Of a DNA stretch of 64,000 nt, positions 2,769 to 56,968 are shown piece after piece. Source of the DNA: Woeseiaceae bacterium (GTDB taxonomy: Bacteria > Pseudomonadota > Gammaproteobacteria > Steroidobacterales > Woeseiaceae); contig JAJFKS010000006.1 of the NCBI GenBank assembly GCA_021773115.1, positions 124,001-188,000 of the forward strand. The letters run 5' to 3'. A model generated the notes under the pieces. It saw nothing but the letters and a program-made list of their open reading frames with translations. It did no database searches and was not told where the DNA came from. How positions within the stretch are numbered: the stretch's first letter is position 1; each line of letters opens with the position of its first letter. Both the position numbers and the translations under genes were made by a program.

Positions 2769-3927
2769 TGCCTTCGTCAAGGCCGGCGATCGTCAGCGGG
2801 TACATGCGATCGTCCATCAGATCGCGAATTAATTTGACGGACGGCGTGTAGTCCCACCGAGATTTCGGTTCGGGGTTGAGCCAGATCGCCTTCGGGTAAG
2901 TGTTTAACAACCGTTTGATCCAGACCGCACCGGGCTCTTCATTCCAGTGCTCCACGCTGCCACCGGCGTAGGCGACCTCATAGGGGCTCATCGTCGCGTC
3001 GCCGACAAATATCATTTTATAGTCAGACGGATACTTGTTCATCACATCAAGCGTCGCAGTCTTTTCTGTTTGCCGGCGGCGATTATCCTTCCACAGGCTT
3101 TCATAAATAAAGTTGTGAAAGTAGAAGTACTCAAGGTGTTTGAATTCACTGCGCGCCGCAGAAAATGTTTCTTCACAGATACGGATGTGGTCGTCCATCG
3201 AGCCGCCGATATCGAAACACAGCAGCACTTTCACCGCGTTGTGCCGCTCGGGAACCATACGAATATCGAGCATTCCACCATTGCGCGCGGTCTTGTCGAT
3301 CGTATCGTTCAGGTCGAGCTGATCGGCGGCGCCTTCGCGGGCAAATTTTCTAAGGCGGCGCAGCGCGACTTTGATGTTGCGTGTACCAAGTTCAACAGAA
3401 TCATCCAGGTTTCGGTACTCGCGCTTGTCCCAGACCTTGACGGCGCTGCGATTTCTTGAACCCTGTTGCCCGATGCGAACACCCTCCGGGTTGTAGCCGT
3501 AGGCACCAAATGGCGAGGTGCCCGCCGTGCCGATCCACTTGCTGCCGCCCTCGTGACGTTCATTCTGTTCGTCGAGACGTTGCTGAAGGGCTTTCATGAG
3601 TTCTTCGAAACCGCCCATCGACTTGATCAGCTTTTTTTCTTCATCGGACAAGGCCAGCTCAGCCTGGCGTTGCAGCCAGTCATCCGGAATTTCCCGCATC
3701 AGGTCCTTCAGCGAATCCTCAACGCCCTTGAAGTAGGCGGCGAAAATTCGGTCGAACCGATCGAGGTGCGCTTCGTCTTTGACCAGTGTCGTGCGTGCGA
3801 GGAAATAAAAGTCATCCACGCTTTGTCCGGCGAGGCCACTCTTCAATGCCTCTTGAAGCATCAGAAGCTCCGTAATCGAAGTCTTCATTCCGCCGTCGCG
3901 AAGCATATAGAAAAATGGAATCAGCAT
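2752..3927 (-). CDS. VWA-domain (CoxE-like) protein, MoxR partner
   Basis: A 391-residue protein with a C-terminal von Willebrand A-type domain (from about residue 215). The metal-site motif is FDIGGSMDDH, where the classical DxSxS has Gly at the middle Ser position; I believe this variant is usual in this CoxE-like family. The N-terminal half is polar, acidic and helical. It lies 18 bp downstream of a MoxR AAA+ ATPase on the same strand. MoxR-VWA pairs act as chaperones for metal-cofactor insertion or complex maturation. The client is not evident here, since no metalloenzyme sits beside the pair. Confidence 0.85.
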   Translation of the reverse strand: MLIPFFYMLRDGGMKTSITELLMLQEALKSGLAGQSVDDFYFLARTTLVKDEAHLDRFDRIFAAYFKGVEDSLKDLMREIPDDWLQRQAELALSDEEKKLIKSMGGFEELMKALQQRLDEQNERHEGGSKWIGTAGTSPFGAYGYNPEGVRIGQQGSRNRSAVKVWDKREYRNLDDSVELGTRNIKVALRRLRKFAREGAADQLDLNDTIDKTARNGGMLDIRMVPERHNAVKVLLCFDIGGSMDDHIRICEETFSAARSEFKHLEYFYFHNFIYESLWKDNRRRQTEKTATLDVMNKYPSDYKMIFVGDATMSPYEVAYAGGSVEHWNEEPGAVWIKRLLNTYPKAIWLNPEPKSRWDYTPSVKLIRDLMDDRMYPLTIAGLDEGIKALR

Positions 3928-52914: not shown

Positions 52915-54660
52915 ATGGCCGGATTGATTCCTCAGGACTTTATTGATGATCTGATCGCAAGAGCAGATATTGTCGAGGTGGTCGGCCGTCGCGTGCAGCT
53001 GAAAAAAGCGGGCCGGGAATTCAAAGCCTGCTGCCCGTTTCACGATGAAAAGTCGCCCTCCTTCACCGTCAGTCCTGGCAAGGGCTTTTATCACTGCTTT
53101 GGCTGTGGCGCACACGGCACCGCGATAGGTTTCCTGATGGAGTTCGATCACTTGAGCTTCGTCGATGCGATTGAATCCCTGGCAGGCGCGATGGGCGTCG
53201 AAGTACCGCGCAGTGAAAGTGACCAGCCGGCCAAGCGATACGATGAACTGTTTTCGTTGATGGATACTGTTTCGCGCTTTTGGCAGGACTGCCTGAAGGA
53301 CAGCCCGGAAGCCGTAGCGTATTTGCAAAAACGCGGTATTGACGGCTCGACCGCAAAACGATTCGGTATCGGCTATTCGCCGGACGGCTGGAGCACCATT
53401 CTCGACAAGTTTGGTCAGTCCGACGAAGCGACCGAGCGCCTGTTGGCGACCGGCCTCATTATTCGCAAGGACAACGGCAAGCATTACGACCGATTCCGGG
53501 ACCGGCTCATGTTCCCGATCCGCGATCCGCGCGGGCGTACGATTGGTTTTGGCGGTCGTACGATGGGTGACGGCGAGCCGAAGTATCTGAACTCACCGGA
53601 AACAGTCCTGTTTCACAAAGGACGTGAGCTCTACGGCCTGTACGAAGCGCGACAGGCGCTGCGACAAATCGATCAACTGGTGGTTGTCGAAGGCTATATG
53701 GATGCGGTCGCGCTGGCGCGTAACGGTATCGACTTCGTCGTCGCGACGCTCGGCACGGCGACGACACACGAACATCTCAATCGTCTGTTTCGGCTCACCG
53801 ACAACGTGATCTTCTCGTTCGATGGTGATAGTGCTGGCGCCAAGGCAGCGTGGCGCGCGTTGGAGAACGCATTGCCGCAAATTCGCGAAGGCCGACAAAT
53901 CCGTTTCGTGTTTTTGCCGGAAGGCGAGGACCCCGATTCTTTCGTTAAGGATAACGGTGCCGATGCATTCGTCGGTCTGCTGGATAAAGGGATTCCACTT
54001 TCGGAATTTCTGATCAAAGAGCTGGCGAGCCAGGTGGATATGAACAGCATTGACGGCCGCGCCCGATTGGCGGAAACCGCGCGTCCGCTCATTAACAGGA
54101 TTCCGGTTGGCGTTTATCGCGAACTGTTGATCAACAGCCTTGCCGAGGCAGTGGGCCTGACAGCGGCGAAACTTGAGAAAATGATGGCCGCCAGCAGCGC
54201 CGCGACTGACCGACCGACGCAGGCGTCGCAGGCCTTTGCAGCGAAGCGCCGCCGCCCGTCCGCCAGTGGCGGACCGTCGGTGGTTCGACGTGCGATCACG
54301 TTGCTGCTGAACCATCCGGAAGCCTGCCAGAAGCTGGACATCGAAAAGCTCGCGGGCGTTCGCCGGGCGGGGGTTGATTTGTTGGCCGCACTCATTGAAA
54401 CCGTGCAGTCGGAGCCCAATATCACGACGGCCGGACTACTGGAGCGCTGGCGCCATGACGAAAAAGGCCGCCACCTGAGCAAGCTCGCCGCCGCAAATGT
54501 GCCAAACGATGACGAATTTGACCCGGCTGCGGAGCTCAACGAATGCATGCAGCAGCTGGCGTTGGCCGGCCGCAAGGAAAGAATTGAATTTCTTATTCAG
54601 AAACAACGACTTACAGGTCTGAGTGACGACGAAAAGTCGGAACTCACACAACGCGTCTAG
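52915..54660 (+). CDS. dnaG: DNA primase
   Basis: A 581-residue primase. The N-terminal zinc finger has Cys-x2-His...Cys-x2-Cys ([12 protein letters not shown] and [10 protein letters not shown]-type residues at about 39-65). The TOPRIM domain (from about 255) has [12 protein letters not shown] and the acidic DGDSAGAKA. The C-terminal helicase-binding domain follows after about residue 430. It makes RNA primers for the replication fork. The ribosome site before ATG 52915 is weak, as is usual for dnaG in this operon. A 168-bp gap separates it from yqeY. Confidence 0.97.
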
Positions 54661-54748
54661 GTCTTACAGGTATGAAATTAAATCTAGATTGGACTCATTC
54701 AAGCGAGTACCATTACTCGTTTGGCTCATTTTCCCGCAGGGGTTTGTT

Positions 54749-56563
54749 TTGAAAGAGAAAACCAAGAAAACTGCCGTCAGCAAACAAGCGAAGCAGCTCA
54801 GAGAATTGATCGGTCGTGGCAAGGAACAGGGTTACCTGACCTACGCCGAAGTTAATGATCATTTGCCGAACGACATTGTCGATCCGGAGCAGATCGAAGA
54901 TATCGTTAACATGATCAACGACATGGGCATCGCGGTGCACGAGAAGGCACCGGATGTCGAATCGATCACACTGTCTGATGCGACAGCGACTGACGATGAT
55001 GGCGCCGAGGAAGCCGAAGCGGCGCTCGCCAGCGTGGATGCCGAATTCGGTCGCACGACGGATCCGGTTCGCATGTACATGCGCGAAATGGGCACGGTCG
55101 AGCTGCTGACACGCCAGGGCGAAATTGAAATCGCGAAGCGTATTGAAGCGGGTTTGAACCAGGTCAAGTATCACATGGTGCATTTTGCGCCGACGGTAGA
55201 GGCATTGCTGGAAGTGGCCGATCGCGTAATCGGCGGCGAGACACGAATGCAGGATTTCGTCGTTGGGTTTATCGACCCGAACGAGCCGGATGAGATCAAG
55301 CCGCCGGCACCGAAGTCTGATGACGACGATGACGAAGTCGTCGATACCGGTCCCGATCCGGAAGAAGTCAAAGCGCGCGTCAAGGTGATTCGCCGCCACT
55401 TCAACCGCGGCATGAAGTATCTCGAGAGCTACGGCTACAAAGACAAGCGCACGAAAGGCGCACTGGCGGATATGGCCGACCAGATCATGGAACTCAAGCT
55501 CGCGCCCAAGCTGTTTGATGCGTTGGTTCGAAACCTCCGTGACGTCGTGTCGATTATTCGCAGCCAGGAACGCATGGTCATGCAGATTTGTGTGCGTGAC
55601 GCCGGTATGCCGCGCAAGGATTTCCTGTCGAGCTTTCCAAAAAGCGAAACCGACTACAACTGGATCGACAAGCACATTCGCGCCAAGCGCAAGCACTCGT
55701 CAATTCTCGCCAAGCTCAAGGACGACATCATTCGCTGCCAGCGCAAGCTGATTGCCGTTGAAGAAGCGACCCGTCTGAGCATCGCCGAGATCAAGGAAAT
55801 CAATCGGCAGATGTCGATTGGCGAAGCGAAAGCACGTCGTGCGAAAAAGGAAATGGTCGAGGCAAACCTGCGCCTGGTTATCTCCATCGCGAAGAAGTAC
55901 ACGAACCGCGGTCTGCAGTTCCTTGATCTGATTCAGGAAGGCAACATCGGGCTGATGAAAGCCGTCGACAAGTTCGAATACCGTCGTGGTTACAAATTCT
56001 CGACCTACGCAACCTGGTGGATTCGCCAGGCGATTACGCGTTCGATTGCTGACCAGGCACGCACGATTCGAATTCCGGTGCACATGATCGAAACGATCAA
56101 CAAGCTGAACCGTATTTCACGCCAGATGCTGCAGGAAATGGGTCGCGAGCCGTTGCCGGATGAATTGGCTGAACGCATGGAAATGCCGGAAGACAAGGTT
56201 CGCAAGGTATTGAAGATCGCGAAAGAACCGATTTCGATGGAAACACCGATCGGTGACGACGAAGATTCACACCTCGGTGACTTTATTGAGGACCAGACGG
56301 TTCACTCACCGGTGGATTCGGCAACGACCTCCGGACTGAAGGAAACGACGCATTCGGTGTTGGCCGGTTTGACGCCACGGGAAGCAAAAGTCCTTCGCAT
56401 GCGGTTTGGTATCGACATGAATACCGATCACACGCTGGAAGAAGTCGGCAAGCAGTTTGACGTGACGCGTGAGCGCATTCGCCAGATCGAAGCAAAGGCG
56501 CTGCGCAAACTGCGTCACCCGACCCGCTCCGACCAGCTCAGAAGCTTCCTGCTCGAGGACTAA
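54749..56563 (+). CDS. rpoD: RNA polymerase primary sigma factor sigma70
   Basis: A 604-residue primary sigma factor. Region 1.1 matches closely ([24 protein letters not shown]), followed by regions 1.2, the acidic nonconserved stretch (about 190-230), 2.1-2.4 ([20 protein letters not shown]), 3 and 4.2 ([30 protein letters not shown]). I chose TTG 54749, which has AGGGG eight bases upstream and gives the usual length. An in-frame GTG at 54623 overlaps dnaG and adds 42 unrelated residues. A strong terminator lies 42 bp after the stop. Confidence 0.97.
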
Positions 56564-56604: not shown

Positions 56605-56632
56605 AAAAGGCCGGGCATTGCCCGGCTTTTTT
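56605..56632 (+). terminator. Rho-independent terminator of the rpoD operon
   Basis: GCCGGGC (56610-56616) and GCCCGGC (56620-56626) form a perfect 7-bp stem with an ATT loop, preceded by AAAAG and followed by six T. It separates rpoD from the tRNA gene 25 bp downstream. Confidence 0.93.
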
Positions 56633-56656: not shown

Positions 56657-56968
56657 GGGCCTGTAGCTCAGTTGGTTAGAGCAGGGGACTCATCACATCA
56701 GGTGCGTTTGTGCCGAAAGGCGCAAAATGAACGGGATGAATTCAGGGAAACCTTAACAGTTCGGCTGATGGCAATCCTGAGCCAAGTCGCGGGTACACTC
56801 GCGAAAGGTGCAGAGACTACCTGGGGACTTAAGCGTCCTTAATAACAGGCTAGAGCGTCCCGCCCCCTAACGATTCGGTCGAGGGAGATGAGATAGTCCG
56901 CTCCAATCAGAAATGATTGGGTACAGTGAATCCCTTGGTCCCAGGTTCGAGTCCTGGCGGGCCCACCA
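56657..56968 (+). tRNA. tRNA-Ile2 (CAU anticodon), interrupted by a group I intron
   Basis: The 5' exon is 56657-56693 and the 3' exon 56929-56968, the latter including an encoded CCA. Joined they give a perfect cloverleaf: acceptor GGGCCTG/CGGGCCC, D stem GCTC/GAGC, anticodon stem GGGGA/TCCCT with loop CTCATAA, and T stem CCAGG/CCTGG. The exon junction lies between positions 36 and 37. The body matches the minor isoleucine tRNA (lysidine at C34, made by TilS) rather than elongator Met. A tRNA-Ile2 after rpoD is a known gammaproteobacterial arrangement. Confidence 0.95.
56694..56928 (+). ncRNA. group I (IC3-like) self-splicing intron in tRNA-Ile2
   Basis: A 235-nt intron inserted after the anticodon, with U before and G at the 3' end, as required. 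P1 pairs exon CAU plus C with GGUG (56701-56704). P2 is 56707-56714/56719-56726 with a GAAA loop. P3 is CGGGATG (56732-56738) with CGTCCCG (56856-56862). P4 is TCAGG (56742-56746) with CCTGA (56776-56780). P7 is GACTA (56815-56819) with TAGTC (56894-56898), inside the conserved CAGAGACTA and GATAGTCC boxes. P9 is 56903-56909/56914-56920 with a GAAA loop. There is no homing-endonuclease gene. The same tRNA and site host the well-known Azoarcus ribozyme. Confidence 0.96.

Follow-up and report, generated by a model that had tools for sequence, protein, structure and literature searches.

A P7.1-bearing group I intron with a phage-like core in the only tRNA-Ile2(CAU) gene found in a Woeseiaceae genome

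When the one gene found for the tRNA that reads AUA is broken in its anticodon loop, what kind of element sits there, and must it be removed for the codon to be decoded? The tRNA-Ile2(CAU) gene at 56657-56968 of the window (the whole 64,000-nucleotide stretch of DNA that was analysed, from a marine Woeseiaceae bacterium) is interrupted on the plus strand by a 235 nt intron (56694-56928). We consider it likely that this is a functional, self-removing group I intron in the sole tRNA-Ile2(CAU) gene, that it belongs to a P7.1-bearing lineage common to phages and related to IA2 rather than to IC3, and that its history within Woeseiaceae has been mainly one of inheritance with the chromosome, with frequent precise loss.

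Identity and structure of the intron

The initial annotation of this DNA proposed a group I intron in tRNA-Ile2(CAU) and named a covariance search as one way to check it. That search bears the proposal out: the group I model RF00028 matches 56682-56920 over its full length (model positions 1-253) with 75.6 bits and E = 2.2e-17, the gathering score being 50. It is the sole gathering-level RNA match in the window and the only group I match in the assembly (4.41 Mb, 39 contigs, 99.56% complete). The 5' exon (56657-56693) ends in the anticodon CAU, with U36 at the splice site, and the 3' exon (56929-56968) encodes CCA. Uninterrupted homologues place the insertion between nucleotides 36 and 37, as had been claimed, and splicing would be expected to leave the exon-exon junction CUCAUAAUCCC. 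The marks of a group I intron are present: a U at the 5' splice site paired to G, a terminal G, a paired core and a conserved P7. The U that ends the 5' exon and the G that ends the intron had both been read correctly, as had the lack of an endonuclease gene; no open reading frame of at least 90 aa occurs inside the 235 nt, which are too short to hold such a gene.

Upstream lies rpoD (54623-56563, plus strand; an open frame with a GTG start as listed). Between rpoD and the tRNA a hairpin (56610-56632) followed by T6 can be read from the sequence, of which the scan gave the minus-strand version only. The promoter scan gave no sigma-70 match near the tRNA. A plasmid search gave two records, with a query match of 48 bases only.

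A structure of 68 base pairs was drawn from the window sequence and then scored on 42 distinct tRNA-Ile2 introns carrying the same sequence subtype of P7.1 (S1, below); L179, L183 and the introns of Thr, Lys and Arg hosts were excluded from this alignment, and the duplicates L026, L029 and L040 from all trees and alignments. P1, P2, P3, P4, P7 and P9 had been described as pairable and all of them pair, as do P5, P6, P6a, P8 and P7.1, which had not been listed. P1 has the guide GUG (56702-56704) as its 3' strand; in 42/42 relatives this pairs with CAU, with a U.G pair at the splice site. P3 (56732-56738 with 56856-56862), P4 (56742-56746 with 56776-56780) and P7 (56815-56819 with 56894-56898; the putative G-binding site) are invariant, like P1, P6 and the outer part of P7.1, and hence are neutral as covariation evidence. 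The covarying helices are P2 (56707-56726, GAAA loop; changes on both sides in 8/8 pairs), P5 (56751-56771; 4/7), P6a (with P6 at 56781-56809; 6/7), the inner helix of P7.1, P8 (56865-56885; 5/7) and P9 (56903-56920, GAAA loop; 6/7), the weakest being P5 with 82.7% of its cells paired.

Overall, 96.5% of cells are paired. Both sides have changed in 32 of the 68 pairs, against a shuffled mean of 20.5 (0/500 shuffles reach the observed count), and the predicted structure is thus supported by covariation in the 42 relatives. Sliding one partner by 1-3 columns lowers pairing to 33-43%, a control that favours a structure derived from one aligned sequence. The folding energy of the intron alone (z = -2.10; 3/200 shuffles equally stable) is not decisive. 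Covariation, together with the empty homologous tRNAs at 34 of 80 loci (see below), rules out a chance origin of the insert.

Such an intron is probably active, and its excision would follow the group I pathway. The guide GUG would pair with the anticodon CAU, a guanosine bound in P7 would attack after U36, and the freed U36 would attack after the last G of the intron. A normal anticodon loop would result, and TilS could then modify tRNA-Ile2 for AUA decoding. An alternative accepts the ribozyme as described and holds that it depends on a host protein, so that it would not splice alone under ordinary conditions. Precedent is given in the accessible text of PMC3984707, according to which certain group I introns splice only with the help of proteins, tyrosyl-tRNA synthetase among them. 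Against this, all core helices pair in the relatives and most of the peripheral ones do so by covariation, and we regard such dependence as unlikely here. We know of no helper protein for the window intron.

P7.1, core letters and the relation to phage introns

From the shared site, the initial annotation went on to suggest kinship of the intron with the Azoarcus IC3 ribozyme. The Azoarcus tRNA-Ile(CAU) intron has the same host tRNA, insertion point (36|37) and guide (GUG), a similar size and likewise no endonuclease gene. In our set this type is represented by the Ile2 intron L183, which we take to be Azoarcus-type from its IC3 core in the profile test and from the Azoarcus sequence; it, too, lies at 36|37 and has the guide GUG. 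A version of the IC3 reading can be put as follows: the window intron is kin to the Azoarcus-type tRNA introns and has acquired a stem, and its likeness to phage introns reflects an old shared core or convergence. Three lines of evidence, the extra stem, the core letters and the tree, bear on this.

P7.1 (56820-56849; CCUGGGGAC...GUCCUUAAUAACAGG) is an extra stem between P7 and P3, whose inner helix is 100% paired and has changed on both sides in 3/5 pairs. By pattern check, every one of the 50 tRNA introns from gammaproteobacteria in this set has it (43 Ile2, 4 Thr, 2 Lys and 1 Arg). So do 57/57 of the phage and viral introns examined, a count that is non-independent since the collection of viral contigs relied in part on a pattern demanding the P7-P3 spacing; a fairer comparison is with the introns of named phages. 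The stem is missing from all 25 IC3-type tRNA introns (the Arg introns L174, L175, L176 and L186 are without it) and from L183, where the P3 strand comes directly after P7. With IC3 introns the window intron shares the anticodon-loop site in a tRNA; it lacks their core letters, and it has the P7.1 whose absence we use as an IC3 mark, a feature itself drawn from the IC3-type introns of this survey.

The letters of the core point the same way when P7.1 is omitted. Over 67 conserved core columns, profiles were compared for IC3 introns and for 10 distinct reference introns of the phage side, nine from phage records and one (L171) from a protein-gene-like setting. All 50 gammaproteobacterial tRNA introns fall on the phage side, the window intron with +20.7 bits and the lowest with +9.4; L183, at -25.0 bits, falls on the IC3 side with the tRNA-Leu and tRNA-Arg introns. 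Leave-one-out errors were 0/24 and 0/10, and with viral contigs alone as the reference 0/24 and 1/24.

A tree of 91 distinct cores was built on the same number of short conserved columns (67), and its bootstrap had not settled. The best tree separates IC3 and L183 from all gammaproteobacterial tRNA and phage introns (support 94/80), and 64 of the 66 gammaproteobacterial tRNA and phage rows stand in one starred branch (98/91) in which phage and tRNA rows are intermixed. By AU test, a clade uniting L183 with the gammaproteobacterial tRNA introns is rejected (p-AU 0.012), as is one of all Ile2 rows (p-AU 0.018). Three arrangements are not rejected: a tree with all tRNA introns on one side and the phage introns on the other (p-AU 0.204), one clade for the gammaproteobacterial introns alone (p-AU 0.076) and a position of L183 outside IC3 (p-AU 0.273). 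Left out for want of a recognisable core were 15 sequences (L162, L170, L197, L198, L220, L226, L230, L247, L248, L252, L257, L018, L019, the T4 intron L273 and the Twort intron L285), together with viral loci without block 2 (L200, L206, L232) or block 1 (L231, L253, L260) and, by eye, L203 and L245. The T4 introns L283 and L286, the SPO1 intron L280 and L287-L292 were unused, partly as their Rfam matches looked incomplete.

The tree disfavours kinship between these introns and the Azoarcus-type Ile2 intron and is, alone, no proof of phage descent or of several entries into tRNAs. Descent of the core from phage introns is favoured by the profile and by the best tree, in the presence of a tRNA/phage split that the AU test tolerates. 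This last result and the common tRNA, site and guide are what speak for an IC3 relative with an acquired stem; the core letters outside P7.1, the rejected clade with L183 and a P7.1 whose very sequence is common to phage introns speak against one, and we judge that history improbable. On the reading that we prefer, of a P7.1 lineage common to phages, two ribozyme types occupy one tRNA site, because the window intron is P7.1-bearing and phage-like while the Azoarcus-type Ile2 intron is IC3. What is new is a P7.1-bearing, phage-shared kind of ribozyme at the exact site of the Azoarcus intron.

Among phage introns, those of group IA2 share P7.1, core letters and the side of the tree with the window intron. 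They comprise the Twort tandem introns, which we take to be IA2, and the introns of the DSS3_VP1 terminase and the Vibrio phage thymidylate synthase genes, whose IA2 status was judged from P7.1-GUA-P7.2. Unlike the window intron, which has a single P7.1 and lies in a tRNA, they carry P7.1 and P7.2 joined by GUA and interrupt phage protein genes; in the accessible text of PMC3428280 this GUA linkage is the hallmark of IA2. The psbA intron of Synechococcus phage S-PM2 (L279) comes closer in this respect, with a P7.1 of the window intron's own subtype, CCUGAG...CUUAAUAACAGG, and no P7.2, and differs in its host, a photosynthesis gene carried by the phage.

Searching phage records with the window intron by blastn gave matches in 112 of 50,697, none over 80% of the query; among the matches listed, the genes at or beside the intron include those for psbA, terminase and thymidylate synthase. 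A further 62 viral contigs (10 + 52) match two core patterns. As these contigs were fetched with patterns taken from the present introns, and some phage records by blastn with the window intron, the collection is biased toward likeness. Joining exons across the 62 contigs yielded no tRNA in 60, a doubtful one in L209 and a tRNA-Asn in L228. In the last (about 2921-3193), a P7.1-type intron of 197 nt interrupts the tRNA-Asn(GUU) at 35|36. Klebsiella phage OU509535 (L269/L278; about 629-930, in a record without annotation) has a tRNA(CAU) split at 36|37, as in the window, by a P7.1-type intron of 228 nt; here the P7.1 subtype is another one and the host is the phage's own tRNA, Met or Ile. These two are the tRNAs on phage or viral records that P7.1-type introns were found to split.

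A search for split tRNAs with the viral pattern GGACTCAT...GGTGCG gave at least 120 stretches, two of which passed a loose filter for P7 or a tRNA 3' half; by eye, neither is a split tRNA. On the minus strand of viral contig L207, at about 6787, a group I core ends just 5' of a T-arm-like and CC-like stretch, and its host is perhaps a tRNA or tmRNA.

Three P7.1 sequence subtypes, defined by patterns, are each common to tRNAs and to phages or viruses. S1 occurs in 42 Ile2, 1 Lys, 36 viral and 2 phage introns; S2 in 4 Thr, 1 Ile2 and 12 viral introns; S3 in one Arg(UCU) intron and in the Klebsiella phage tRNA intron. This sharing suggests that P7.1 introns may have entered tRNAs several times, with a clade of gammaproteobacterial introns alone among the trees that were not rejected. 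The Arg(UCU) gene with a stem resembling that of the Klebsiella phage tRNA intron (L172) was read as split at 34|35, likewise by a P7.1-type intron.

The host tRNA and AUA decoding

Joined, the exons form a 77 nt tRNA that ARAGORN recognises with a score of 122.3 and the anticodon CAU, labelling it Met on account of CAU. The joined gene differs by one base from the uninterrupted gene of a relative (L027), which in turn matches E. coli genes at 85.7%, the three listed rows being annotated as tRNA-Ile. Its alignment scores to the elongator Met and fMet tRNAs of the same genome are 0.73 and 0.60. The gene thus has the CAU anticodon and the orthology to known tRNA-Ile that are expected of tRNA-Ile2(CAU). 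Run on the window with default settings ARAGORN finds no tRNA, and with introns allowed it calls the split gene Gln(CUG); routine annotation may therefore well overlook tRNA-Ile2, which offers an explanation for some Ile2 genes annotated as missing.

Genome-wide there are 42 matches to RF00005, of which ARAGORN reads 41 as tRNAs. Those with CAU are elongator Met and fMet, and neither a second tRNA-Ile2 nor a tRNA-Ile(UAU) is among the 41 of this 99.56%-complete assembly, so the expectation of a single CAU-Ile gene holds for the assembly. Also missing from the 41 are tRNA-Ile(GAU) and tRNA-Ala(UGC), probably because an rRNA operon is missing from the assembly. A TilS homologue is present (170.1 bits; cut-off 93.6). 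The split gene is the sole AUA reader found in the assembly, and since this sole copy is split, AUA decoding probably requires splicing. That the gene is instead a decaying pseudogene, with AUA decoded by another tRNA, is hardly credible, for nothing was found in its support and the tRNA complement, TilS, the intact tRNA formed by the exons and intron pairs kept by covariation all speak against it. The same genome has a tRNA-like gene (L139; G000:C13:103959-104078) with a variable arm of ~45 nt, which matches RF00005 at 29.9 bits and is not called by ARAGORN.

Distribution and history

The neighbouring DnaG has its nearest relatives in Woeseiaceae and other gammaproteobacteria. Among the best 80 of 589 DnaG-anchored loci (named genomes, gammaproteobacterial), 9 have an intron of 232-237 nt in the CAU tRNA and 34 have the same tRNA without an insert; the 3' side is cut or unmatched in 2, and in 35 the tRNA pattern found nothing. 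Counting duplicates, 74 loci showed both the tRNA and rpoD, which lie <800 nt apart in 64 of them. Within the genus, 14 of 36 other genomes have a group I match, a partial one in one of the 14; across the class and the phylum, RF00028 matches 56/369 and 34/398 genomes.

Exons were joined at the 30 best-scoring loci of the class survey, to which the host assignments are confined. The 29 new loci comprise 18 Ile2, 4 Thr(UGU), 1 Lys(CUU) and 3 Leu(UAA) hosts and 3 without a tRNA, two of the Ile2 assignments (L147 and L151) having been corrected by eye. All 18 Ile2 introns are of the P7.1 kind, and the window intron is thus no singleton. Nor does its size mark a new compact ribozyme, as had been suggested, because the survey also contains introns of 204-212 nt. 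The guide tracks the anticodon of the host: GUG for CAU in 42/42 introns, GCAA for UUGU in 4/4 Thr introns and GAG for CUU in 2/2 Lys introns.

Intron distance follows RpoD distance in the 14 carriers that differ by <20% in RpoD, a group that takes in L167 from a different family (r = 0.62, p = 0.0002), and weakly so in 18 distant carriers (r = 0.28, p = 0.066). On an RpoD tree of 67 rows, presence and absence require at least 18 changes, 6 of them forced by starred branches, with gain and loss indistinguishable there. We read this as mostly vertical inheritance with frequent exact loss within Woeseiaceae, and as an unsettled mix of transfer and loss beyond the family.

Prior reports cover parts of this picture. 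The accessible text of a 2014 review lists bacterial group I tRNA introns for cyanobacteria, alpha- and betaproteobacteria only (PMC4033280), and that of PMC8450103 reports tRNA-Ile2 introns in Acidovorax and Burkholderia. In Beggiatoaceae, according to the accessible text of PMC4853749, introns occur in tRNA-Arg(UCU) and tRNA-Leu(UAA), and dsrA has one of group IA2. Our literature search, which covered titles and the openings of abstracts and few subscription papers, turned up no description of a phage-type intron in an Ile2 gene of gammaproteobacteria.

A second, phage-shared kind of ribozyme is common in gammaproteobacterial tRNAs and occupies the base at which the crystallised Azoarcus intron is inserted, so that two ribozyme architectures with one job can be compared in nature. 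A broader history is quite possible, though short of probable: a phage-borne ribozyme family may have moved time and again into the anticodon loops of tRNAs in bacteria (Ile2, Thr-UGU, Lys-CUU and Arg-UCU), with only the short guide changed to fit each anticodon and phage tRNAs, such as the Klebsiella phage tRNA(CAU), as the vehicle, site 36|37 of Ile2 having been taken independently by the Azoarcus type. Phage tRNAs would be a testable route by which introns enter essential tRNA genes.

Two further host tRNAs came to light at 36|37: group I introns split Thr(UGU) in four genomes (L144, L146, L149 and L152) and Lys(CUU) in two (L003 and L155). To our knowledge neither tRNA-Thr(UGU) nor tRNA-Lys(CUU) is an established group I host. 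IC3-type introns also occur at 34|35 of proteobacterial tRNA-Leu(UAA), among them L022 and L024, both from the order to which the window's genome belongs, and L199 (assigned by eye).
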